The notes: a model not told the origin generated them from the sequence alone. DNA of 64,000 nucleotides from an uncultured Geobacteraceae bacterium (GCA_903876875.1 CAIRBT010000057.1:1-64000), one strand, 5' to 3'. Shown: positions 50,131-62,744, counted from the first letter of the stretch. Numbers and translations are program-made.

Positions 50131-50511
50131 CTACGCCGTGACGTTGGCTGTCAATTCGGTCTTGGACATCAGGTCTTCGGTTTTTGCCACCATCTCTGTA
50201 GGGATTTGGTAAATTGTATTGTTATTGCTATCGAGAAATTTTATCCGCACCTTACCCTGCGGATTATACGACTCAACGATATGCCTCATGGAGCGACCCG
50301 ATGTGGCAGCGTTTTTTGTCGTCGCCACGACAGGCACCTTCGCCGGTGCAACCGGCTTGCTGTCAACAGTTGCATCCTTCGAATGCGCCTGCTGCACCTG
50401 GGCTGCAATGGCAGCGTTCTTCAAAGCCCCATCCCGTGTTGCCATCGCTGGCACCGGGGAAGTAGGTAACTTGTAAGAAGCAGCATCACCTGAAATTGGA
50501 CTTAATCCCAT
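50131..50511 (-). CDS. FlaG-like small protein
   Basis: C-terminal GKVRIKFLDSNNNTIYQIPTEMVAKTEDLM resembles FlaG core; start at MGLSPISG; downstream of sigma-28 promoter. Confidence 0.55.
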   Translation of the reverse strand: MGLSPISGDAASYKLPTSPVPAMATRDGALKNAAIAAQVQQAHSKDATVDSKPVAPAKVPVVATTKNAATSGRSMRHIVESYNPQGKVRIKFLDSNNNTIYQIPTEMVAKTEDLMSKTELTANVTA

Positions 50512-50559
50512 CACACACCTCCACACGTCACTGTTTTAAACCATGCTCACGGCAGGTTT

Positions 50560-50817
50560 CTACGCGGTAACGTGTAACCCCCCGCCCGTTTTTCCCCCGG
50601 CATTTCCCGCCAGTTGCCGGGAAGGAGAACCCCCTTCACCTGCCAGCTTCTGTAATGCCTGTTTAGAGATTGTTACCGTATCGGTCTTGGATGCCTGAAC
50701 AGATTTCTGCGCATCCTGCTTTACCTGGGGTGCTGCCGCCGTCAGGTCAACTTTAGCCTGCGGATTCACGTACCCCTGATTCCCACTCACACTGTACGGA
50801 GAAATAGTATGTAACAT
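50560..50817 (-). CDS. Small protein of unknown function with DTVTIS-x-x-A-x-x-L motif (flagellar regulon candidate)
   Basis: Start MLHTISPY preceded by GGAGGTG; own sigma-28 promoter upstream. Confidence 0.65.
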   Translation of the reverse strand: MLHTISPYSVSGNQGYVNPQAKVDLTAAAPQVKQDAQKSVQASKTDTVTISKQALQKLAGEGGSPSRQLAGNAGGKTGGGLHVTA

Positions 50818-50851
50818 AACACCTCCCATCAAACTCCACCTCTTATGGATT

Positions 50852-50878
50852 CTATCGGCATTGCTTCAAAAAACTTTA
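50852..50878 (-). promoter_or_regulatory. Sigma-28 (FliA) promoter
   Basis: Minus strand TAAAGTTT-N11-GCCGATAG, 15/16 match to TAAAGTTT-N11-GCCGATAA. Confidence 0.88.
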
Positions 50879-50909
50879 CAAAAAAAATGCTCCACGCAAA
50901 AAAAATACG

Positions 50910-51095
50910 CTACTTCTCGTTTTCATGCTTTCTCACACAGGTAACATCGTAGGGCTTACCCCTGAAATCCTTCATATAGGTATAGGCCATGCCCGCTTCG
51001 GTACATTTGTTGATTTTAGCGTCAAGTTCTTCCTGACTAACATTGGAGCAAGCCCCCAGCAACAGTGCCACAACCAGAACGACCAGAGCTTTCAT
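50910..51095 (-). CDS. Small lipoprotein
   Basis: 61 aa; MKALVVLVVALLLGACSN lipobox; AGGAGG Shine-Dalgarno. Confidence 0.75.
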   Translation of the reverse strand: MKALVVLVVALLLGACSNVSQEELDAKINKCTEAGMAYTYMKDFRGKPYDVTCVRKHENEK

Positions 51096-51290: not shown

Positions 51291-53231
51291 GTGAGAGAGC
51301 AGTTCATCCGATTTTATTTTGCGTTGTCTTTGCGAACCCACCTGATTCTGTTGGTACTCCTGCTGACCATCCCCACGCTTGTACTTATCTTCCACTCCGG
51401 GGCATCCCAACGACAGGAGGGTATTCGCAAAGGGCTCGGAGAGGCTCGCAGACTGGTCAACACCATCTCAATGGAGCAGTACAACCTGACAGGGGACGTG
51501 GAACAGCTGTTGGTGACACTGGCACAGATTCCAGACATCCGGAACCAGCGCACGAAATCGGTCAATACCATGCTGGGGAAAATTCTCACGGGAAGCCCCC
51601 ATTTCACTAATATTGTCATTGCCAGACCGGACGGCACCGTATGGGCCAGCGGACTACCGACGACTCTGGCTCTATCCCTGAAAGGAAAGCGGTCGTTCCA
51701 AAATGCTGTAATAACAAAAAAGTTCTCCTCCGGTGAGTATGTGGTAGGTACCATTTCCGGCAAGCCAACCCTTGGCTTTGCCTATCCCCTGTTAAACGAA
51801 AGCGGTGAGGTAGAACAGATCCTGGCTGCAATTGTCAATTTTAATTTTTATAACTCTCTGCTCAGTCAGAGCGATGTCACAAAAAATATTTCCTTCTCCG
51901 TTATTGATACGAATGGAACCATTGTCCATAGAAACAGTTCACCGGAACAGTATGTTGGTAAAAAAGTCGAAGAGAAGGCTTTTCAGCGCATGAAAAGTGG
52001 CCCGGCCAGGGATACCCATATTGAAACGGATAATGGAGACATTGACCAGATAGTTTCCTATCGGGCCATGCAACTTCCGGGAGAGCAGTCCCCCTACCTC
52101 TACATACGAGCCACCATGCCGACCACCGGTGCTTTGGAAAACGCACTCCGTGCGGAACTGATCAATATCGCCATCCTGTCACCCTTGTTACTGATAGCCA
52201 TTGTAACGGCAATTCCCATCGCCGATCGCTGTTTCATCAGACGTATCAACAAACTGTGGGATGCAGCTCTGCGACTTGCATCGGGTGATCTTCAGGTGAG
52301 AGCGTCGGACTCCGTAAGCGGCGGCGAGTTGGGAGAACTGGCTCGGGCCTTCGACACCATGGCCAGCCAACTGGCCGAAAGGGAGCAGATACTGTCACAG
52401 AGCAAGCAGGAACTGCATAACCTGAATGAAGGCCTGGCAAAGCGGGTCGAGGAGGAGACGGAAAAGCGGTTGACCCATGAACGCCTGCTGGCACGTCACG
52501 CCCGACTGGCGGCCATTGGCGAAATGATTGGAGCCATCGCCCATCAGTGGCGACAACCACTTGCCACACTCGGAGCTACCATTCAAGGCATACGAATGGC
52601 ATGGGACACTCACTGCCTTGACGACACCTTTATGGAAACGGCCGAACTCGATGCCCAGGCACAAATTTACCATATGTCGGATACCATCGAAGGCTTCAGG
52701 AATTTTTTCAGCCCTGAAAAAACAGTGGAGCAGATAGATATCAGAAAAGTTGTTACCGACGTGGTTCCCCTAGTTATTTCACAGTTTACCGACTCCGGAG
52801 TCGCACTTGAGATAGCAGACACTACCGATGAGGCAATTTTCACAATCAGCGGCTACCAGAATGAGCTGAAGCAGTCGATTCTTAATCTGGTCAGCAACTC
52901 CCTCGACTCTATTCTGGAAAAAAGGCTCCTTTCCGGCGCAGTCGATGGAACCGGGCTGGTCACCATAGCACTCCGCAACACGGGAAATACAGCAATCATT
53001 CAGGTACGGGATAATGGCTGTGGTATTCCGGAAGAATTTGCCGATAAGGTATTTGAACCATACTTCACCAGCAAGTCGCTTCATAAGGGAACCGGCATCG
53101 GGCTCTATATGTCAAGACTGATTGTTGAAGAGAGCATGGGGGGTCGCCTTGGTTACATTAGTGGACCAGAGGGAACCGTTTTCACCATTGAACTGGTAAA
53201 AAACGGCATAGAGGAGCTGAACAATGGGTAA
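51291..53231 (+). CDS. Sensor histidine kinase (dCache-like sensor, HAMP, HisKA, HATPase)
   Basis: 646 aa, GTG start; GEMIGAIAHQWRQPLATLG H-box; DNGCGIPEEFADKVFEPYFTSK. Confidence 0.93.
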   Translation: MREQFIRFYFALSLRTHLILLVLLLTIPTLVLIFHSGASQRQEGIRKGLGEARRLVNTISMEQYNLTGDVEQLLVTLAQIPDIRNQRTKSVNTMLGKILTGSPHFTNIVIARPDGTVWASGLPTTLALSLKGKRSFQNAVITKKFSSGEYVVGTISGKPTLGFAYPLLNESGEVEQILAAIVNFNFYNSLLSQSDVTKNISFSVIDTNGTIVHRNSSPEQYVGKKVEEKAFQRMKSGPARDTHIETDNGDIDQIVSYRAMQLPGEQSPYLYIRATMPTTGALENALRAELINIAILSPLLLIAIVTAIPIADRCFIRRINKLWDAALRLASGDLQVRASDSVSGGELGELARAFDTMASQLAEREQILSQSKQELHNLNEGLAKRVEEETEKRLTHERLLARHARLAAIGEMIGAIAHQWRQPLATLGATIQGIRMAWDTHCLDDTFMETAELDAQAQIYHMSDTIEGFRNFFSPEKTVEQIDIRKVVTDVVPLVISQFTDSGVALEIADTTDEAIFTISGYQNELKQSILNLVSNSLDSILEKRLLSGAVDGTGLVTIALRNTGNTAIIQVRDNGCGIPEEFADKVFEPYFTSKSLHKGTGIGLYMSRLIVEESMGGRLGYISGPEGTVFTIELVKNGIEELNNG

Positions 53232-54573
53232 CAAACTGCCGCTCAAAGTCCTCTACATTGAAGACGAACCAAAACTGAATGAACGTATCTGCATCGTCTT
53301 GAGAATGCACTTCGCATCGGTCATCAGTGCCGCAAATGGCCGTGAGGGCTTGGAACTCTACAGCTGTGAGCGACCGGATATTGTGGTCAGTGACATTAAA
53401 ATGCCGATCATGGATGGGCTGGAAATGACGGTTCGCCTCCGGGAGCAGGCACCGGACGCGCCGATTATTTTAACAACGGCCTTCACAGAGACGGAATATC
53501 TGCTCAAGGCCATTGAACTGGGCGTCTGCGCCTATGTGAGAAAACCTCTGGACTGCCGTCAACTGGTGGAAACCATCACCCGCATCGCCACCCCCCTTCT
53601 GCAGAAAATTGAGCTTACGGAGGCCCGGCAACGGGAACAATCCTCACTGGAACTGCTCATTGGCACAAGTCCGGCCATGCAAAAGGTGATACAACAGGCG
53701 CGTCGCATTGCTGACACCGATTATTCGATTCTCATACAGGGGGAAACCGGGGTCGGCAAATCGCGGCTTGCTTCAATCATTCACGGCTTAAGCAATCGTA
53801 AGAGCCACACCTTAATTCCGGTTACCCTGGGCACCCTTTCGGAAACACTGGTGGAAAGCCAGCTGTTCGGCCATGTCAGGGGAGCTTTTACCGGAGCGGT
53901 CTCCACCAGAAAAGGGCTGTTTGAAGAGGCCAATGGCGGCACAGTTTTTCTCGACGATGTTGATTGTGCTTCCCCAACCATCCAGGCCAAGATTCTCCAG
54001 GTCGTCGAACAGAAAAAGTTCTTTCCCGTTGGGGCAACGAAACCGGTCGATGTTGATATCCGGGTTATTACCGCCAGCAATCGGGACCTCTTTGATGAAG
54101 TTCATGGCGGCAATTTCAGGGAAGATCTCTATTATCGGCTCAATGATCTCATCATAACCATCCCCCCACTTCGCGAACGGAGGGAAGACATTTCCGAAAT
54201 TGCCCGATTGTTTCTTAATGAAATTTCCCAGGAACACAAAAAATCGCCCCCCCACTTAACGGCGGAGGCACTATCCCTACTCCAAAACTATCACTGGCCC
54301 GGGAACGTCAGAGAGTTAAAAAGCGTCATAAAGAGAGCTGCACTCTTTGCCGATGAAGTTATTTCCGGGCATGACCTGAGTTCTGTCATGGGCACCCCCA
54401 AATATCAGGTTCAAAATCCGTACATTGCCATCCAGTTGACCCTCGACGAACTAACGCGCCAGGCGGTACGTCAAGCCCTTGAAGCCTCCGGCGGCAAAAA
54501 AATGGAGGCGGCCAGAGTGCTTGATGTGGATTACGGGAAATTCAAACGAATGCTTGAAAGATATCAGATCTGA
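53224..54573 (+). CDS. Sigma-54-dependent (NtrC-family) response regulator
   Basis: Receiver YIEDEPKLNERI...VSDIKMPIMDG; QGETGVGKSRLA Walker A; GAFTGA motif; C-terminal HTH. Confidence 0.94.
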   Translation: MGNKLPLKVLYIEDEPKLNERICIVLRMHFASVISAANGREGLELYSCERPDIVVSDIKMPIMDGLEMTVRLREQAPDAPIILTTAFTETEYLLKAIELGVCAYVRKPLDCRQLVETITRIATPLLQKIELTEARQREQSSLELLIGTSPAMQKVIQQARRIADTDYSILIQGETGVGKSRLASIIHGLSNRKSHTLIPVTLGTLSETLVESQLFGHVRGAFTGAVSTRKGLFEEANGGTVFLDDVDCASPTIQAKILQVVEQKKFFPVGATKPVDVDIRVITASNRDLFDEVHGGNFREDLYYRLNDLIITIPPLRERREDISEIARLFLNEISQEHKKSPPHLTAEALSLLQNYHWPGNVRELKSVIKRAALFADEVISGHDLSSVMGTPKYQVQNPYIAIQLTLDELTRQAVRQALEASGGKKMEAARVLDVDYGKFKRMLERYQI

Positions 54574-54678
54574 CACTCGTCATTTTACCCACCCCTCGCA
54601 CTGCATCACTCTTCATTTTGCATACCTGAAATAGAATATAACTCATTCTGATACCAGTAAATTAACCACCTCAAAACA

Positions 54679-54694
54679 TGGCATACCTCTTGCT
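54679..54694 (+). promoter_or_regulatory. Sigma-54 (-24/-12) promoter
   Basis: TGGCAT-ACCTC-TTGCT with GG-N10-GC spacing, about 100 bp downstream of the sigma-54 activator gene. Confidence 0.75.
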
Positions 54695-54782
54695 AAACTG
54701 TAGAGCGGCGGCTCCACTGACAGCACTAACAAGCAACTGCACACGCACCGTGGAGAACATCTTTCCGCCTGTCGGGCTATCT

Positions 54783-54998
54783 ATGAAACATGACATTGTA
54801 ACCGGTATAATCAATAACAGCAGTATCCTGGGCAAAGGTTCGATGTGTAGCCATCTCTCGGAGCCGTTTCCAGAATGCTACTGCAAACAGCTCACAGGTA
54901 CGAACATCCCCAAGATTATAAAATTCTGCTCCGGTGAGTTCAAGTTCTGTAGCGTCTACCTGAGCCACGCTGAGGGGAACAGCCTCTCATCAAACTAA
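54783..54998 (+). CDS. Small cysteine-rich protein (C-x9-C-x-C-x14-C-x6-C)
   Basis: 71 aa; SMCSHLSEPFPECYCKQLTGTNIPKIIKFCSGEFKFCSVY; start at MKHDIV, or at 54843 preceded by AAAGG. Confidence 0.6.
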   Translation: MKHDIVTGIINNSSILGKGSMCSHLSEPFPECYCKQLTGTNIPKIIKFCSGEFKFCSVYLSHAEGNSLSSN

Positions 54999-55060
54999 CA
55001 ATATTCCAATTAATTTATTTGGAGGCAACCCGTTGCCCCGCTACTAAAAGGAGATTTCTC

Positions 55061-55150
55061 ATGTTCATTTTTCTCGCCATTCTGGCACTCGCCTTTTCCG
55101 CTGTTTCTCTTCAGTTCTATTGCTATACCCTCTATAGGAAATCACACTAG
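55061..55150 (+). CDS. 29-aa single-TM small protein MFIFLAILALAFSAVSLQFYCYTLYRKSH
   Basis: Strong Shine-Dalgarno AAAGGAGA 7 nt upstream of ATG; hydrophobic helix; below the ORF-track length cut. Confidence 0.6.
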   Translation: MFIFLAILALAFSAVSLQFYCYTLYRKSH

Positions 55151-55172
55151 AAATTACACTTGGAGCAGCCAC

Positions 55173-55373
55173 ATGCCACACAAGAAAGTGAATCCACGCT
55201 ACCGAGTCGTCTCCGTGCGCCTGAGTGAGGTGGAACATGCCTTTTTGAAGGATGCCACCGTTGAATCCAACAGCAGTTTATCCGAACTGATGCGGGAAGC
55301 GGTGCTGTCTCTCATGGCGAACGCTCCGGACGGGCATCGGATGGCACCGGTTGACAAATCAAGTATCCCATAG
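55173..55373 (+). CDS. Ribbon-helix-helix-like small protein
   Basis: 66 aa; YRVVSVRLSEVEHAFLKDATVESNSSLSELMREAVLSLM. Confidence 0.7.
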   Translation: MPHKKVNPRYRVVSVRLSEVEHAFLKDATVESNSSLSELMREAVLSLMANAPDGHRMAPVDKSSIP

Positions 55374-55403
55374 CAGAGAACCATACATTGAGGGAGTACA
55401 GGA

Positions 55404-55688
55404 ATGATCAAGTCTGAACTTACACAGGCGGTTGCGGATTATCGGGGCATCAGCTACCGAATGGCCGAAAAAATCGTCAATGAAATTTTCGATGGCATGT
55501 TTGAAGAACTTGCGGGGGGTGGACGCATCGAAATACGGGGATTTGGCAGCTTTGCCAACCGGCATTACAACACCTACCAGGGACGCAACCCAAGAACCGG
55601 AGAAGTAATCACCGTTAAACCCAAAAAAATAGCTTTTTTTAAAGCCGGTAAAGAGTTACGGGAACACCTGGCCACACCCAACAGTTAA
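55404..55688 (+). CDS. HU/IHF-family DNA-binding protein (IHF-beta-like)
   Basis: 94 aa; GGGRIEIRGFGSFANRHYNTYQGRNPRTGEVITVKPKKIAFFKAGKELRE. Confidence 0.93.
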   Translation: MIKSELTQAVADYRGISYRMAEKIVNEIFDGMFEELAGGGRIEIRGFGSFANRHYNTYQGRNPRTGEVITVKPKKIAFFKAGKELREHLATPNS

Positions 55689-56860
55689 CGTTCCCTGAGC
55701 GAGCCGGAAAAGGTCTTATTCAAAGGTTTTGTCAGGTAATGCATGACCGTTTGGGTGCCGGTTTTTACTTCTACCAGTCCGGTCATACCCGGCTTTATTT
55801 CTATTTTTTTATCCGGTTTCTTTTTATTATGTTCGACAATACTCGGCTCATCTATTTCCACGTGAACCCGGTAATAGACCACTTCCCCCTGCCGACTCTC
55901 CTCGTTAATGGCATCGGGACTCACATAGGCAACCGTACCACCAAAAAAACCATAAATGGAGGGGTCAAAGGCATCCAGTTTTATGGAGGCGGCCTGCCCT
56001 GTTTTTACGTGGGTTAAATCAACCGGTTTCAGCTTTGCTTCAACAATCAGCTTGCTATCCGTCGGCAACATTTCCAAAACCACATCTCCCGGCTTGATCT
56101 TCGCTCCCGGGGTCGTGAAGGTTATCCGTTTCACAATGCCATTTGCCGGAGAGAGTATCTCCGTTCGCTCCACAACCGTTGACCGCTCTGACAACGCCTG
56201 CAGCTGAGTGGATAAATCCTCCTCCACCTTTGTCATCTCCGTCTGGGCATCTTGAAAGTACTTGTTCCGACGGGAACTTATCTGGCCATTCAACTCGGCA
56301 ACCTGCCGTTCTAACCGAATGACTTCGGTTTTACCGATATCGCCACTGGCCAGAAGCGGCCGGTTAAGTTCCAGCTCATCACTGACAAGTTTCAGAACCT
56401 GCTCCAAGGACTGGATATCCATCTTCAGTGCCTGCTGTCGCCGGTTATAGAGTTCCGTCTGATTCTTCACAAAATGTGGATACGCCTTAACATCCGGAGG
56501 GAATTGCAGCGCCTTATTGAATACTTCAGCATTCAACCGCACCAGAGCGGCTTTTAGAGCCGCCACCTTACCTTTTGAGTCATTCTGAGCTGCAACGGCT
56601 TGATTCCGCTCCAGTCTGACGAGAAGCTGTCCCTTACGAACGGTCTCCCCCTCCCGCACCAGCAGTTCAGAGATAACTCCGTCATTTGCACTCTGAACCA
56701 CCTGGGTGCGTGCCATGGCAATGACTTGTCCCCGTGCCGTCGAAACGATATCCAGCTCTGACCTGGCTGCCCACACAAGAAATATGATGATAAGTGACAG
56801 AGTCAGCAGCAGCACCACGGAGGGCCACTTCCCCTGTTTTCGTTTTGAAATCGGTACCAT
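55685..56860 (-). CDS. Type I secretion membrane fusion protein (HlyD family)
   Basis: 391 aa; ILSPANGIVKRITFTTPGAKIKPGDVVLEMLP; EIKPGMTGLVEVKTGTQTVMHYLTKPL. Confidence 0.94.
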   Translation of the reverse strand: MVPISKRKQGKWPSVVLLLTLSLIIIFLVWAARSELDIVSTARGQVIAMARTQVVQSANDGVISELLVREGETVRKGQLLVRLERNQAVAAQNDSKGKVAALKAALVRLNAEVFNKALQFPPDVKAYPHFVKNQTELYNRRQQALKMDIQSLEQVLKLVSDELELNRPLLASGDIGKTEVIRLERQVAELNGQISSRRNKYFQDAQTEMTKVEEDLSTQLQALSERSTVVERTEILSPANGIVKRITFTTPGAKIKPGDVVLEMLPTDSKLIVEAKLKPVDLTHVKTGQAASIKLDAFDPSIYGFFGGTVAYVSPDAINEESRQGEVVYYRVHVEIDEPSIVEHNKKKPDKKIEIKPGMTGLVEVKTGTQTVMHYLTKPLNKTFSGSLRER

Positions 56861-58998
56861 TACTCCGCCCCCTGACCAGCCTGATTTGATGAATTATTGC
56901 TGAGCTTTTCCAACACGGCATCACGGGGGCCATCCATAACAAGCTCCCCCTGACTGAACACGAGAATTCTTTGTACCAGCGCCAGCAGCTTGGGCTTGTG
57001 AGTTACCAGCACAAAGGTCTGCTCCGCCTTCACCTGCTGAGCCAAAGCGACAATCACCCGTTGTTCATGACTATCGTCGAGTGAGGCGGTTGGTTCGTCA
57101 AGCAGCCAGAGATCTGGCTTGGAAAGGATCATCCGGGTGATGCCGATAAGCTGTTTCTGACCACCGGAGACCCCGCCCCCCCCTTCCGCGATTTCCATAT
57201 CGAGTCCCTTGGGATTATTGTTCACGATGACGATCAAACCGGTCAGATGACAGACCATCAGCAGCTCTTCATCGGAGGCCCGTGGGTTACCCAAAAGCAG
57301 ATTGTAGCGGAGCGTCCCGCCAAAGAGATGTACGTGCTGAGGTAGATAACCGATGGAATCGCTCAAATGGGGACGGGAAATCTGTTGGAGATCAAGGCCG
57401 TCAAGCAGCACGTGGCCGCTCTGAGGTTTGTACAGCCCTGCCAGCAACTTGAGCATAGTGCTTTTGCCGCCGCCAATGGGGCCGATAATACCAATCTTTT
57501 CACCCCGCTCAATAACCAGCCTTTTCACCGTCAACGCTTCCCTGCGACCACGATAGGAAAACTGGAGGTCCTCAAGGAAATAACGCCCCTGAACCGTCAC
57601 CGAATGAATGGGGCGATCAACATCATGATTATCCAATTCCAGTTTAAAAACCTTCTCCAGCTCGTCCAGTGACGCCTTGGCATGCCCCCACTGAACGATA
57701 AGACCGGGCAGCATGCCAACCGGTGCCAAAACCCGTCCAGACAGTATGGAGCAGGCAATAATTCCCCCCGTTGTCAGATCGGTACTCGTCGAGGCAATAT
57801 AGGCACCGGCACAGACCAGCATCACGTAAGAGAGTTGCTGTATCATGGCAGAGAGATAGGAGGCGGTTTCGCTGCACCGCTTGACCTTGTCAGAGTCGTC
57901 TATGACCTTGCGGCTCAAATGATCCCACCGACTCAGCAATTGCCACCCCATGCCGGAAGCCTTGAGGGACTCGGCACCTTCCACAACTTCAACAAGAAGC
58001 CCGACCTTACGATTGGATCCTGCCACACCGTTCTTCGTATGGTGGGCTATTTTTGCCTTGGACATAAAGCCGATTGCCATGGCCAGCGTAAAAAACACCA
58101 GCACCACCATTGCCACCTGTGTACCGGCAATGGAGACGATCACCGTAAGAAAAAGCAGGGCAAACGGTGCATCGTTAAAGGCAAACATGGTGGCAGTAGT
58201 GGCAAAGCTGCGTATGGTTTCATAGCTGCGAACCTGAGCGGCCAGCGTCCCCACACTTCCCGGGAGCTGATCCATGCGGATACTCAACAGCCGTCTGAAC
58301 ACCTTGTGGGACAGTTCGTGGTCCATCTCCTTAATGCCGTCCTCTAAAATCAGACTGCGGGATTTCCTGATAATTAACTCAAGTAGCATCGCGATAAAAA
58401 CCCCGACCGTCAGGGTCGTAAGGGTTTCAAGTCCATGGGTCGGAATGACCCGATCGTAGATTTGCATCGAATAGAGTGAAGAGGCAAGGGCAAGAATATT
58501 GCACACGACAGAAGCCCCGGTTGCCATTACAAAGACCCGCTTATGCTTGAGGATTTCGTCGATAAACAGACGCCGTACCGAAACGTCACCGGTGGTATCA
58601 GCACTGCTCGGCAACTGGGCATAACGGCTCTTTGCCGGAAAACTGTCCAGATAGCTGGTACCCTCAGTCCCCTCGACCAGCCATCGCCCCTGATCGGTTA
58701 CGGCACAGACAATACGGCACCCCACACCGGGCAGCAGTGCAATCAGAGGAAGAGCACTGGGTACCGGCACCGAGTGCCACACCGGCGCACCGGCACCAAA
58801 GGCTTCAAAGAGTCGCTCAATAACTATCTCGGCACTCTCACCGGCATTCGGGTCATCATTTCCCCCAACTGTTTTTTCCAGTTCAAAGACAATTTGTTTC
58901 GACAAGCGGGGCAAATCTACCTGTAAAGCACTACAACGGTCAGCAAGCCATTTGACATCAATGGCGGGACCAGCCTCATTATCAAGAGTATTTTCCAT
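56860..58998 (-). CDS. Type I secretion ABC transporter permease/ATPase (LapB/HlyB family)
   Basis: 712 aa; IYDRVIPTHGLETL, GPIGGGKST Walker A, VSGGQKQ signature, LLDEPTASLD Walker B. Confidence 0.95.
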   Translation of the reverse strand: MENTLDNEAGPAIDVKWLADRCSALQVDLPRLSKQIVFELEKTVGGNDDPNAGESAEIVIERLFEAFGAGAPVWHSVPVPSALPLIALLPGVGCRIVCAVTDQGRWLVEGTEGTSYLDSFPAKSRYAQLPSSADTTGDVSVRRLFIDEILKHKRVFVMATGASVVCNILALASSLYSMQIYDRVIPTHGLETLTTLTVGVFIAMLLELIIRKSRSLILEDGIKEMDHELSHKVFRRLLSIRMDQLPGSVGTLAAQVRSYETIRSFATTATMFAFNDAPFALLFLTVIVSIAGTQVAMVVLVFFTLAMAIGFMSKAKIAHHTKNGVAGSNRKVGLLVEVVEGAESLKASGMGWQLLSRWDHLSRKVIDDSDKVKRCSETASYLSAMIQQLSYVMLVCAGAYIASTSTDLTTGGIIACSILSGRVLAPVGMLPGLIVQWGHAKASLDELEKVFKLELDNHDVDRPIHSVTVQGRYFLEDLQFSYRGRREALTVKRLVIERGEKIGIIGPIGGGKSTMLKLLAGLYKPQSGHVLLDGLDLQQISRPHLSDSIGYLPQHVHLFGGTLRYNLLLGNPRASDEELLMVCHLTGLIVIVNNNPKGLDMEIAEGGGGVSGGQKQLIGITRMILSKPDLWLLDEPTASLDDSHEQRVIVALAQQVKAEQTFVLVTHKPKLLALVQRILVFSQGELVMDGPRDAVLEKLSNNSSNQAGQGAE

Positions 58999-59001
58999 AG
59001 G

Positions 59002-60369
59002 TCAGTTTTTTTCCTTGTAAGACCAGGATTGATTTCCCGCATATAACTGCAAACGGTACTCCGAAGCAACGAACAGCGCCTGTGCATCGGCCATCTGCTG
59101 TTCGGTTTGAGTCAGCTCACGGGCCGCATTCAGCACATCAAGCCAGCTCCGCTTCCCGGCGATAAACATCCGCTTATAGGATTCCAGCACCTCACGTGAT
59201 GAAACCACAATATGGGTGGCAACCTTCAGACGCACAAAGGAACTGACACAATCGTTATAGTCTGCCGCTATCTGCGCCAGCAACTCCCGCCGGGCAACCT
59301 CAAAAACTTCCTTCTGTCCGGAAACCTTCGCCCTGCCCCCTTTAATATCTGAATACGTGGAGAGACCGGCACCCGGTGAATAGGAGACATTCAGATAGAC
59401 TCTTCCCGCCTCCCTCACCGGTTCCTGGGTAAACAAACCGTTCTGGTACTCAGCCTTGACACTGAGAGACGGCCAGAGGGAAGATTTCTGCACCTCCAGC
59501 TGCTGGGAAGCCACCTCTACTTCCGCATCATATCGGAGCAACATCGGATGTTTCTTAACAATACCGTACAGCTCTTCGGAGGTAAAACGAGCCGGGAGCG
59601 CATTTGTTCCGTAGGAAACTTCAATGTCCTCGGCTGCTACCGACCTGCCGACAAGTTGCCCCAACTTTACGAGGGACGTCGACTGCATTGACTTCAAAAT
59701 CGACAGATCGCTGACACCCTGACTCAAGCGTGATTCAACCAGCGACAGATCGGCCTGGGCAGACACACCATTTGCAACCCTTCGCTTAATCATCTCGACA
59801 AACCCTTCGAGACGACGGTTTCCCTCAACCTGTGCGGCACCCCTCTGCTGGCTCTGCATGAAAGCCTGGTACACCGAAAGCACCTGCAGCGCCAGATTAT
59901 ATTTTGCTTCGGCCAGTGAAAACTCAGCTGATTTTGCCTGGGATTTCGCCAGGGCGTAGTTGGAGGTCAATCGGCCACCGGTCCAGACAGGCTGCTGAAG
60001 GCCGACGGTGTACGTGCGATCATAGACACCAAGGGCAGGGTCATTGTTACCCACCTGCTGAAACTGCATATAGGGAGAGGGGAAAAACTGCCAATACGCC
60101 GAATCAACCGCCGATGCGGCACTGGCTGAAAAATAGCGCCGTGACAGGATCTGGGGATTTTTTGACACCGCCTCGTCAACCAATGTATCAAGAGTCCATT
60201 TTGCCGGTGTTTTTTTTCCCACAGGTGGAGAAACAGCACCAACCGGCTCCCCCCCGGACGTTATAAAGGTCATTTCCTGGTCGCACAGCACCAGTGACGG
60301 AAGGGCAACCCCCATCAGCAGCAGCACAAGACCTATTACGCCGGGTGCCCCGGTGCGGGTGCCTTTCAA
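59002..60369 (-). CDS. TolC-family outer membrane efflux/secretion protein
   Basis: 455 aa; LLAQIAADYNDCVSSFVRLKVA...SYKRMFIAGKRSWLDVLNAARELTQTEQQ. Confidence 0.93.
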   Translation of the reverse strand: MKGTRTGAPGVIGLVLLLMGVALPSLVLCDQEMTFITSGGEPVGAVSPPVGKKTPAKWTLDTLVDEAVSKNPQILSRRYFSASAASAVDSAYWQFFPSPYMQFQQVGNNDPALGVYDRTYTVGLQQPVWTGGRLTSNYALAKSQAKSAEFSLAEAKYNLALQVLSVYQAFMQSQQRGAAQVEGNRRLEGFVEMIKRRVANGVSAQADLSLVESRLSQGVSDLSILKSMQSTSLVKLGQLVGRSVAAEDIEVSYGTNALPARFTSEELYGIVKKHPMLLRYDAEVEVASQQLEVQKSSLWPSLSVKAEYQNGLFTQEPVREAGRVYLNVSYSPGAGLSTYSDIKGGRAKVSGQKEVFEVARRELLAQIAADYNDCVSSFVRLKVATHIVVSSREVLESYKRMFIAGKRSWLDVLNAARELTQTEQQMADAQALFVASEYRLQLYAGNQSWSYKEKN

Positions 60370-62594
60370 ACGACACCTCCGGGCAGAGGTACCTGCAGCA
60401 ACCGGGATCGGTCATCCGCGCAATAGCCGCGCCACATACCCGCAAGTAAGGCTTCGAAATGCCGTACATAGCTCTCTATCTCACAGAGGGGGGAAGCGGC
60501 CATCCGTACCCGCAACTTCGGCCGATCCTGGCGCAGTGTCCCATAGCGGGAAGCCAACCGGACCGCCACCGCCACATATTCGTCCTCAGTTGAGGCCACC
60601 CACTCCGATTCTCCCAAGGAAGTCAAGAAACTTGTTCCCATCCGCCCGACAAAATTATTCCCCTTCAGCGTCACCACCGGAATCCCCATCCAAAGAGCCT
60701 GAAGCGTCGTCGTACCGCCATTATAGGGGGTTGGATCAAGGGCAATATCCATATCGCCATATTCGGACATCATATCCGCCAAACCGGTAGGTCCGCGCAG
60801 TATCAGCCGGTCGCCAGTGATACCCTGTTCGGCAAACAGTGCGGCAAACCGTGCCTGTACGGCTTCGTCCCGCAGGGATGGTGCTTTCAGTAAGAGCTGT
60901 GACCCGGGTACGGCGTGCAGAACCCGAGCCCAGAGGTTGATAGTTCGGCGTGACATTTTCATAGCATTATTAAAGGAACCAAAGACAACCGGTTCCCCAA
61001 TGGAACGTGGCGGCGGCAGGGGATACTCATCCACTGAAGCCCAGCAGAAGACACTGTCCGGCATCAGAGCCAGCCCTTCACTAAACAGATGGGCCTGCTC
61101 GGGAGGACTGACCACCCTATCACCAATCAGCCAGTCAATTGTGGACAAACCGGTGGAATGGGGATAACCGAGGAACGTGGCCTGCACCGGGGCAGCACGG
61201 AGTGCAAAGACCCCCAGCCGGTGTGATGAGGTGTGGCCGGCCAGATCGACAAGAATATCAATCTGATCCGCAACAATCTGGCTCTGCAACGCCCTGTCAT
61301 CCATCCCCGCCGCTTCCAGCCAGTGATCAGCACACTCCATGGCCTGCCGGGTATACCCATCGCACATGGTGCCGGTATGATAGATAAAATATTCAAAATC
61401 AGTATGACTATGGCGCAGCAGCACCGGCAGCATGAATACATTCACCGGATGCTGTCGGTGCAGATCTCCCGTCACATAACCGATGCGAAGACGACGCTCC
61501 AGCGACCTCACATTGGTAAAAGTGCTCTTCTGCTCCACAGCGGTGGTAATCGGAGCGCACAGACAACGATGTCGGTCAGCAACCTCTTCAGCGGTCAGAT
61601 CATCCTGATACAGCAAAGTCATCGCCAGACTCGATGCCAAGCGGGAGAGCGGATCTCCACCGGTGTCGTACATCTGCTGCATGAGTTCCAGATACTCACC
61701 GGCATCGCCCATCAATCCCCGCACCCGCGCAGCCAGCAACCGGACTTCATTGTTGTCCGGCGCAAGCGCAGTCAGGCGGCTCAGGGTAGTGCGGCAATCA
61801 TGAAGGCAATAGACATCGGCCTGGATTTGTGCCAGCTTCAGCAACACCGGCACAGTATCAGGACGTATCTGCAGGGCTTTTTCCAGCAGTTCAATCGCTT
61901 CCTGCCAATAATTATGTTCATAGACCCTGACGGCCAGGGTTTGTAAAAAAACCGGATTCTCCGATAACGACGCGCGGGCAAAAGCTTTTTCTGCGGCAAC
62001 CTCATGCCCCACCCGCAGCAGAGCGTCTCCCAGATACATCATCGAACCGAAGCGTATCGGCCGAATATCCAGCAATCGGGAAAAGGCGGCAATGGCACCC
62101 GGTGCGTTTCCCCCCTTCAACCGCCAAAGCCCCATAAAATGTAACGTTTCGCCGACAATCGGTTCAAGGGAACAGGCCCGATCCAGTGAGTGGACGGCAG
62201 CAGCCTCCCCTTCCGCAACTTCTTGAAGCCTGGCCAGATACAACCAGGTCAACCAATCGCCCGGGTATATGGTCACCTGTTGACGAAACCGCCCGATCTG
62301 CCCGGCAGTTTCAGAAACATCACCGTTGCCCAGCAAGGGGGGAGGGATTTCTTCATTCTGCCACCCGACCAGATGAAGAGCCTCCACGCGAGGCAGGATT
62401 CCCCTGTCAACCCGCACCGCCTGCCTGGCTGCATAACCAGCCTGCCACGACAACTTTTCTGCCCCGTAGCCTTTGGCCAGCTCAAACCAGACCGTGGGTT
62501 GGAGAAGCGATTGTGTCAAAGCAATCCACAACAGTCCCGGATTGTTGTTCCTCCCTATCTCTGCCACACACCGCCTCCGCCTCACATGATACAT
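60366..62594 (-). CDS. TPR-repeat GT41 (O-GlcNAc transferase/SPINDLY-like) glycosyltransferase
   Basis: 742 aa; N-terminal TPR-like helices; C-terminal FLGYPHSTGLSTIDWLIGD, VVFGSFNNAMKMSRRTINLWARVL, LDPTPYNGGTTTLQALWMGIPVVTLKG. Confidence 0.92.
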   Translation of the reverse strand: MYHVRRRRCVAEIGRNNNPGLLWIALTQSLLQPTVWFELAKGYGAEKLSWQAGYAARQAVRVDRGILPRVEALHLVGWQNEEIPPPLLGNGDVSETAGQIGRFRQQVTIYPGDWLTWLYLARLQEVAEGEAAAVHSLDRACSLEPIVGETLHFMGLWRLKGGNAPGAIAAFSRLLDIRPIRFGSMMYLGDALLRVGHEVAAEKAFARASLSENPVFLQTLAVRVYEHNYWQEAIELLEKALQIRPDTVPVLLKLAQIQADVYCLHDCRTTLSRLTALAPDNNEVRLLAARVRGLMGDAGEYLELMQQMYDTGGDPLSRLASSLAMTLLYQDDLTAEEVADRHRCLCAPITTAVEQKSTFTNVRSLERRLRIGYVTGDLHRQHPVNVFMLPVLLRHSHTDFEYFIYHTGTMCDGYTRQAMECADHWLEAAGMDDRALQSQIVADQIDILVDLAGHTSSHRLGVFALRAAPVQATFLGYPHSTGLSTIDWLIGDRVVSPPEQAHLFSEGLALMPDSVFCWASVDEYPLPPPRSIGEPVVFGSFNNAMKMSRRTINLWARVLHAVPGSQLLLKAPSLRDEAVQARFAALFAEQGITGDRLILRGPTGLADMMSEYGDMDIALDPTPYNGGTTTLQALWMGIPVVTLKGNNFVGRMGTSFLTSLGESEWVASTEDEYVAVAVRLASRYGTLRQDRPKLRVRMAASPLCEIESYVRHFEALLAGMWRGYCADDRSRLLQVPLPGGVV

Positions 62595-62707: not shown

Positions 62708-62744
62708 GGACATTTTAACCACCAAGGTAGTCATTTTGTCCACC
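62708..62744. repeat. Direct repeat, 21-bp spacing (CATTTTaaCCACC / CATTTTgtCCACC)
   Basis: Two copies at 62711 and 62732, 11/13 identical. Confidence 0.75.

Follow-up and report, generated by a model that had tools for sequence, protein, structure and literature searches.

A predicted sigma-54 two-component switch and its cassette of mini-proteins in an uncultured Geobacteraceae bacterium

We analysed a stretch of 64,000 nucleotides from an uncultured Geobacteraceae bacterium (GCA_903876875.1, CAIRBT010000057.1:1-64000), referred to here as the window. It belongs to a 3.93-Mb assembly in 191 contigs (G000), and its closest named relatives by alignment are Geobacteraceae and Desulfuromonadales metagenome assemblies. 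Positions 51,291 to 55,688 carry a sensor histidine kinase (HK), an NtrC-type sigma-54 response regulator (RR), a -24/-12 promoter and genes for a cysteine-rich protein (the Cys protein), a single-transmembrane (TM) peptide with a strong Shine-Dalgarno sequence (SD), a ribbon-helix-helix (RHH) protein and an HU/IHF-like protein (Table 1). The original prediction had named each of these parts, and all were found where it had placed them. It had further proposed that they form a dedicated signal-responsive regulon of mini-proteins, possibly tied to the convergent type I secretion (T1SS) operon; enhancer spacing and synteny upheld the link from regulator to promoter to cassette, and the tie to secretion was not supported. 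Comparisons were made with class A, defined as 18 loci with close relatives of the RR (RR phmmer E < 1e-170), and with further related loci.

Table 1. Genes and regulatory sites of the module and the convergent operon, in window coordinates.
Feature	Position	Strand	Details
HK, 646 aa, GTG start	51291..53231	+	dCache_1, HAMP, H-box, HATPase_c
NtrC-type sigma-54 RR, 449 aa	53224..54573	+	REC, AAA+ (GAFTGA), weak Fis-type helix-turn-helix
Enhancer copy 1	54576..54595	+	ACTCGTCATTTTACCCACCC, core 54580-54593; tandem repeat conserved in class A
Enhancer copy 2	54608..54628	+	core TCATTTTGCATACC at 54613-54626; tandem repeat conserved in class A
-24/-12 promoter	54679..54694	+	TGGCATACCTCTTGCT (GG-N10-GC); conserved; matches Geobacter RpoN consensus
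Cys protein, 71 aa, unnamed family	54783..54998	+	five invariant Cys, C-x9-C-x-C-x14-C-x6-C; no TM segment
Single-TM peptide, 29 aa	55061..55150	+	SD AAAAGGAG; Q...Y after TM segment; basic C-terminal tail
RHH protein, 66 aa	55173..55373	+	models below cut-off; orthologue passes RHH_1
HU/IHF-family DNA-bending protein, 94 aa, nearest IHF-beta	55404..55688	+	Bac_DNA_binding
Convergent T1SS operon: HlyD, ABC, TolC, family-41 glycosyltransferase	55685..62594	-	neighbour kept only in G043

Regulatory anatomy and the small genes

Based on Pfam searches, the dCache_1 domain of the kinase scored 54.8 bits against a cut-off of 45, and the HAMP and HATPase_c domains (the latter with 73.5 bits) also passed their cut-offs. 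HisKA was matched at E 0.08 only, yet the H-box IAHQWRQPL (HQWRQPL) is present. The RR contains Response_reg (81.9 bits), Sigma54_activat (201 bits) and the GAFTGA motif, followed by a weakly recognised C-terminal Fis-type helix-turn-helix that scored under its cut-off of 22 (HTH_8, E 0.005, 16.9 bits). In almost every class-A locus an orthologue of the HK adjoins the RR, and the genome encodes its own rpoN.

The promoter begins 105 bp past the RR stop codon, in agreement with the correctly spaced site claimed about 100 bp behind the regulator, and transcription is predicted to start near 54705. Its sequence fits the RpoN consensus published for Geobacter, TTGGCACGGTTTTTGCT (PMC2725144); according to that paper, no rpoN deletion was obtained in G. 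sulfurreducens. The window holds one occurrence of the strict consensus TGGCAYN5TTGCW compared to 0.32 expected, and 29% of the window shuffles gave such a match by chance. A single strict match is thus unremarkable by itself, and the promoter stands above chance because of its conservation and enrichment: of 27 strict sites detected over 2.1 million strand-bases of related loci, 22 lie in the 35 kb of sequence upstream of genes of the Cys family, and genome G043 retains the promoter as TGGCACACCTATTGCT.

Between the RR stop codon and the promoter we identified a tandem repeat (CTCGTCATTTTACCCACCCC and CTCTTCATTTTGCATACCTG; consensus CTCnTCATTTTGCmyACCC, twice), which was absent from the original prediction. 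Two sites at a spacing of 32-33 bp are found in 14/18 class-A loci, and wherever these loci have the strict promoter the second copy ends 51-53 bp ahead of the -24 element. At least two enhancer hits were obtained in 15/18 class-A loci compared to a mean of 0.025 in shuffles. The spacing corresponds to three helical turns, and this, together with an unchanging distance to -24, is what the enhancer of an NtrC-type activator requires. Exact matches to the enhancer in the own genome are limited to these two copies, which speaks for a regulon with a single promoter; when one mismatch was allowed there were 15 matches, compared to 13 for a reversed control pattern. Additionally, an IHF-site match was detected family-wide at one offset between enhancer and promoter (mean 9.7/13, reached in 0/1000 shuffles), although in the window itself the match at that offset is weak, and common descent is not accounted for in the shuffles. 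The anatomy of enhancer and promoter is conserved over several genera, and from it we consider a link from regulator to promoter to mini-protein cassette very likely.

In comparison to G043, the gene for the 29-aa peptide has 20 nucleotide differences, 17 of them at codon position 3, and these lead to 4 amino acid changes where 13 were expected (0/5000 simulations). Judged by its substitutions, the peptide is under protein-level (purifying) selection and is a real protein, and no family match was found for it in Pfam. Eleven TM peptides from 10 class-A-type loci have one TM segment and, behind it, an invariant Q...Y; most also have a basic tail. For the RHH protein the best models were under cut-off (DUF6290, 24.5 vs 27), and the protein at the corresponding place in locus L073 passes RHH_1. 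An RHH gene follows the Cys gene in 9/21 class-A-type loci; two of the nine, L092 and L102, resemble each other and come from one assembly. The HU/IHF protein matched Bac_DNA_binding with 92.2 bits over model positions 1-89 of 90, and missed the cut-off for the IHF-beta equivalog (94.4 vs 115).

The proposed gene order HK-RR-Cys-29aa-RHH-HU is complete in G043, together with the convergent secretion operon, and the order Cys-TM peptide-RHH recurs in several genera. An HU/IHF gene lies within the cassette in four loci only, namely the window, G043, L090 and L091, and in the last two it is directly behind the promoter. The TM peptide occurs without RHH in L090 and L120 and RHH without the TM peptide in L097, and in L076, L119 and L121 the second gene encodes instead an AYSDPGSG membrane protein of 60-67 aa.

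The five-cysteine family and its gene company

Searches of the Cys protein against Pfam, NCBIfam and PDB gave no family or relative, only chance-level scores; a likeness of the family profile to eIF2-alpha in PDB was rejected for the same reason, and a literature search found no paper on the family. Relatives are present in 35/76 genomes of the own taxonomic family (single-sequence search) and in 92/141 genomes of the order by a profile search, whose profile also catches a divergent single-copy subfamily. Beyond the order the family is rare, with few genomes and 10 of the 395 sampled phylum genomes in all; the complete genome G051 carries eight copies. All five cysteines are invariant across 62 aligned members, which were chosen by that cysteine pattern, and a few further members are without the second cysteine of CxC. 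The pattern suggests that the protein probably binds a metal or an Fe-S cluster, or is redox-active. The AlphaFold model of the full-length protein was poor (pLDDT 58.6). The divergent subfamily (CPFYGKNDDYCDVGCGYISPHDVN...; L082-L089) is usually single-copy in Geobacterales, and its genes are followed by small membrane proteins and a membrane protein of 348-349 aa; in L086-L088 they likewise lie behind a sigma-54 regulator.

Among 64 assessable loci of the order, 32 have a sigma-54 activator gene that ends at most 700 nt upstream of the Cys gene. Elsewhere in the phylum, the series HK, REC-AAA+ regulator, Cys gene was found in 8/9 loci, with regulators from a different subfamily. The own genome contains a second, paralogous HK-RR-promoter-Cys locus (L032, G000:C111, 8819-14822; promoter TGGCACATTCAATGCT), not reported in the original prediction. 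In L120 one sigma-54 promoter precedes a Cys-TM peptide-HK-RR series in which the start of the TM-peptide gene overlaps the Cys stop codon (TAATG). Other contexts of the Cys gene are repeatedly signalling or redox: the Cys domain is fused to a kinase that appears NarX-like by eye in L098, the gene lies beside CheW and chemoreceptor genes in L075, and in G051 and G052 (L064-L069, L072) several copies stand behind a hemerythrin-like gene, often ahead of an MFS transporter. Going by this gene company, the Cys protein accompanies sigma-54 two-component systems throughout the phylum, which the original prediction had not anticipated, and its association with sensors across the phylum suggests an overlooked working part of signalling systems. 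A small TatA-like protein is encoded next after the Cys gene in L071, L072 and L133.

Accessory signalling parts or output

The reading that we favour, with moderate confidence, is a self-contained sigma-54 two-component switch in which the Cys protein and the TM peptide serve as accessory or feedback signalling parts. The dCache kinase would detect an extracellular or periplasmic signal and phosphorylate the RR, which would bind the two tandem enhancer sites, some 60 and 90 bp ahead of the promoter, and, with RpoN, switch on the single operon directly behind its own gene. Of the resulting mini-proteins, the cytosolic five-Cys protein and the TM peptide would act at or near the kinase or the activator and not as metabolic enzymes, and the RHH and HU/IHF proteins would modulate expression, either of the operon or of its targets. 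The accessory or feedback role of the Cys protein and the TM peptide, argued from gene company, is put forward tentatively.

The genes downstream of the module differ between loci. The T1SS operon is a neighbour in the window and G043 only, and with two genomes its link to the module is weak. Elsewhere we found methyltransferase/sulfatase genes (L076), guaBA, cytochromes, chemoreceptors and others; a giant DUF4347 surface protein adjoins the Cys gene in L093, adhesin- or fibre-like proteins follow in L032 and L095, and a porin-like protein with a multiheme cytochrome in L077, L078 and L080. No single output is conserved, and as the varying genes are often exterior, the output may be the cell surface.

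A part of these observations would also fit a real regulatory link whose mini-proteins are themselves output; the Cys protein would then be a cargo protein or one for metal handling or stress, and the module would control the cell surface (adhesins, T1SS, cytochromes). Exterior genes are indeed frequent downstream (L093, L032, L095, L077, L078, L080, L076, and the T1SS in the window and G043). However, HK-RR-Cys stays constant while the downstream genes vary freely, the Cys domain is fused to a kinase in L098 and lies beside chemotaxis genes, and the family is without signal peptide or TM segment; we regard output as unlikely, though it deserves the most weight of the alternatives. That the TM peptide and the RHH protein form a toxin-antitoxin-like pair, a small hydrophobic toxin with an RHH antitoxin, is improbable. 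The peptide is hydrophobic with a single TM segment and the RHH protein gave weak RelB/NikA-type scores, but no toxin family was matched, the RelB-type assignment failed (25 vs 50 bits, with the 29-aa peptide and HU as neighbours), and RHH antitoxins usually partner larger toxins. Moreover, both genes stand behind a conserved sigma-54 promoter in one kind of locus, the Q...Y motif of the peptide is conserved, and the two genes are sometimes apart. An artefact of adjacency, with a chance -24/-12 match and small open reading frames (ORFs) under unrelated promoters, would be in keeping with the strict matches in shuffled windows and the weak SD of the Cys gene; the conservation of promoter, tandem enhancer and spacing across genera and the purifying selection on the 29-aa ORF make it very improbable.

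Several observations weigh against the favoured switch with accessory parts. The compared loci, class A included, share ancestry, so that the conservation counts are not independent. About half of the Cys genes in the order stand without an activator next to them, only about half of the class-A loci carry the TM peptide and RHH, and the start codon of the Cys gene has a weak SD only. In G014 enhancer and promoter are kept but the mini-proteins are missing, a case showing that the switch can act for other genes or persist after loss of the cassette. The AlphaFold model of the Cys core was moderate (pLDDT 76, pTM 0.47) and matched no fold in PDB, so that metal binding is argued from the invariant cysteines alone.

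Some further features were noted around these loci. Downstream of L032 lie genes for a beta-propeller protein, for a dockerin-like protein and for another small protein that resembles lipoproteins. A pair of TCATTTT..CCACC-like repeats, 21 bp from each other, is found at 62710-62744, upstream of the T1SS/glycosyltransferase operon and between it and a divergent transporter gene; as a link to the T1SS this pair was rejected, since there is no -24/-12 site nearby and it was not seen in G043. Four large DUF4347 ORFs of the own genome (G000:C5, C167, C130 and C178; open frames of 1132 to 5158 aa), unlinked to the T1SS of the window, are possible secretion substrates. Three small minus-strand genes at 50131-51095 have no Pfam match, and the one at 50910-51095 is lipoprotein-like. 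An Rfam search of the window gave 0 matches, and scans of the window for sigma-70 promoters and terminators gave site numbers not above shuffles.

Relation to known systems and meaning

The switch is of a known kind: as in NtrC/AtoC/ZraR-type systems, a REC-AAA+ (GAFTGA) regulator and a HAMP kinase are combined with a tandem upstream enhancer and a -24/-12 promoter. In contrast to these systems, no named NCBIfam equivalog reaches its cut-off here, the target is a mini-protein operon, and the enhancer sequence is specific to this subfamily. The module similarly resembles PrsK/PrsR of XrtA/PEP-CTERM systems, an HK with an NtrC-type sigma-54 RR, and TIGR02915 gives the RR 294 bits; however, this is under the cut-off of 503 and no PEP-CTERM cargo was found here. 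Reiterated IHF genes have been described in Geobacter sulfurreducens (PMC7962754), and as there, extra HU/IHF copies occur in a genus with many RpoN promoters, but here an IHF-beta-like gene is inside a sigma-54 operon.

Knowledge of small proteins that tune sensor kinases comes mainly from single cases such as MgrB. This 47-aa membrane feedback protein of PhoQ/PhoP (PMC8404706) is the closest functional analogue, as the 29-aa peptide is likewise a very small single-TM protein placed, by its promoter, in a two-component regulon, and a feedback of the peptide on the kinase as that of MgrB on PhoQ is possible. Unlike MgrB, the peptide has no detectable homology, would be under sigma-54 instead of sigma-70 control and has a five-Cys companion. 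Neither the libraries nor the papers that we searched appear to describe this target operon, the five-Cys family or the family of TM micropeptides.

Here, sigma-54 two-component systems are accompanied by a five-Cys family that is unnamed and phylum-wide and by a TM micropeptide that recurs; as enhancer, promoter and genes can all be read, tractable Geobacter strains would allow a direct genetic test. The tandem TCATTTTGCmyACC sites, 32-33 bp apart and about 52 bp ahead of -24, provide a searchable signature for such switches and their targets. A bolder and rather doubtful proposal is that the five-Cys protein is a new cytosolic metal or redox domain and a dedicated third component of the sigma-54 two-component systems of this phylum, held at the membrane kinase by the TM micropeptide. 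If this were true, the switches would combine a signal from outside the cell with the metal or redox state inside it.

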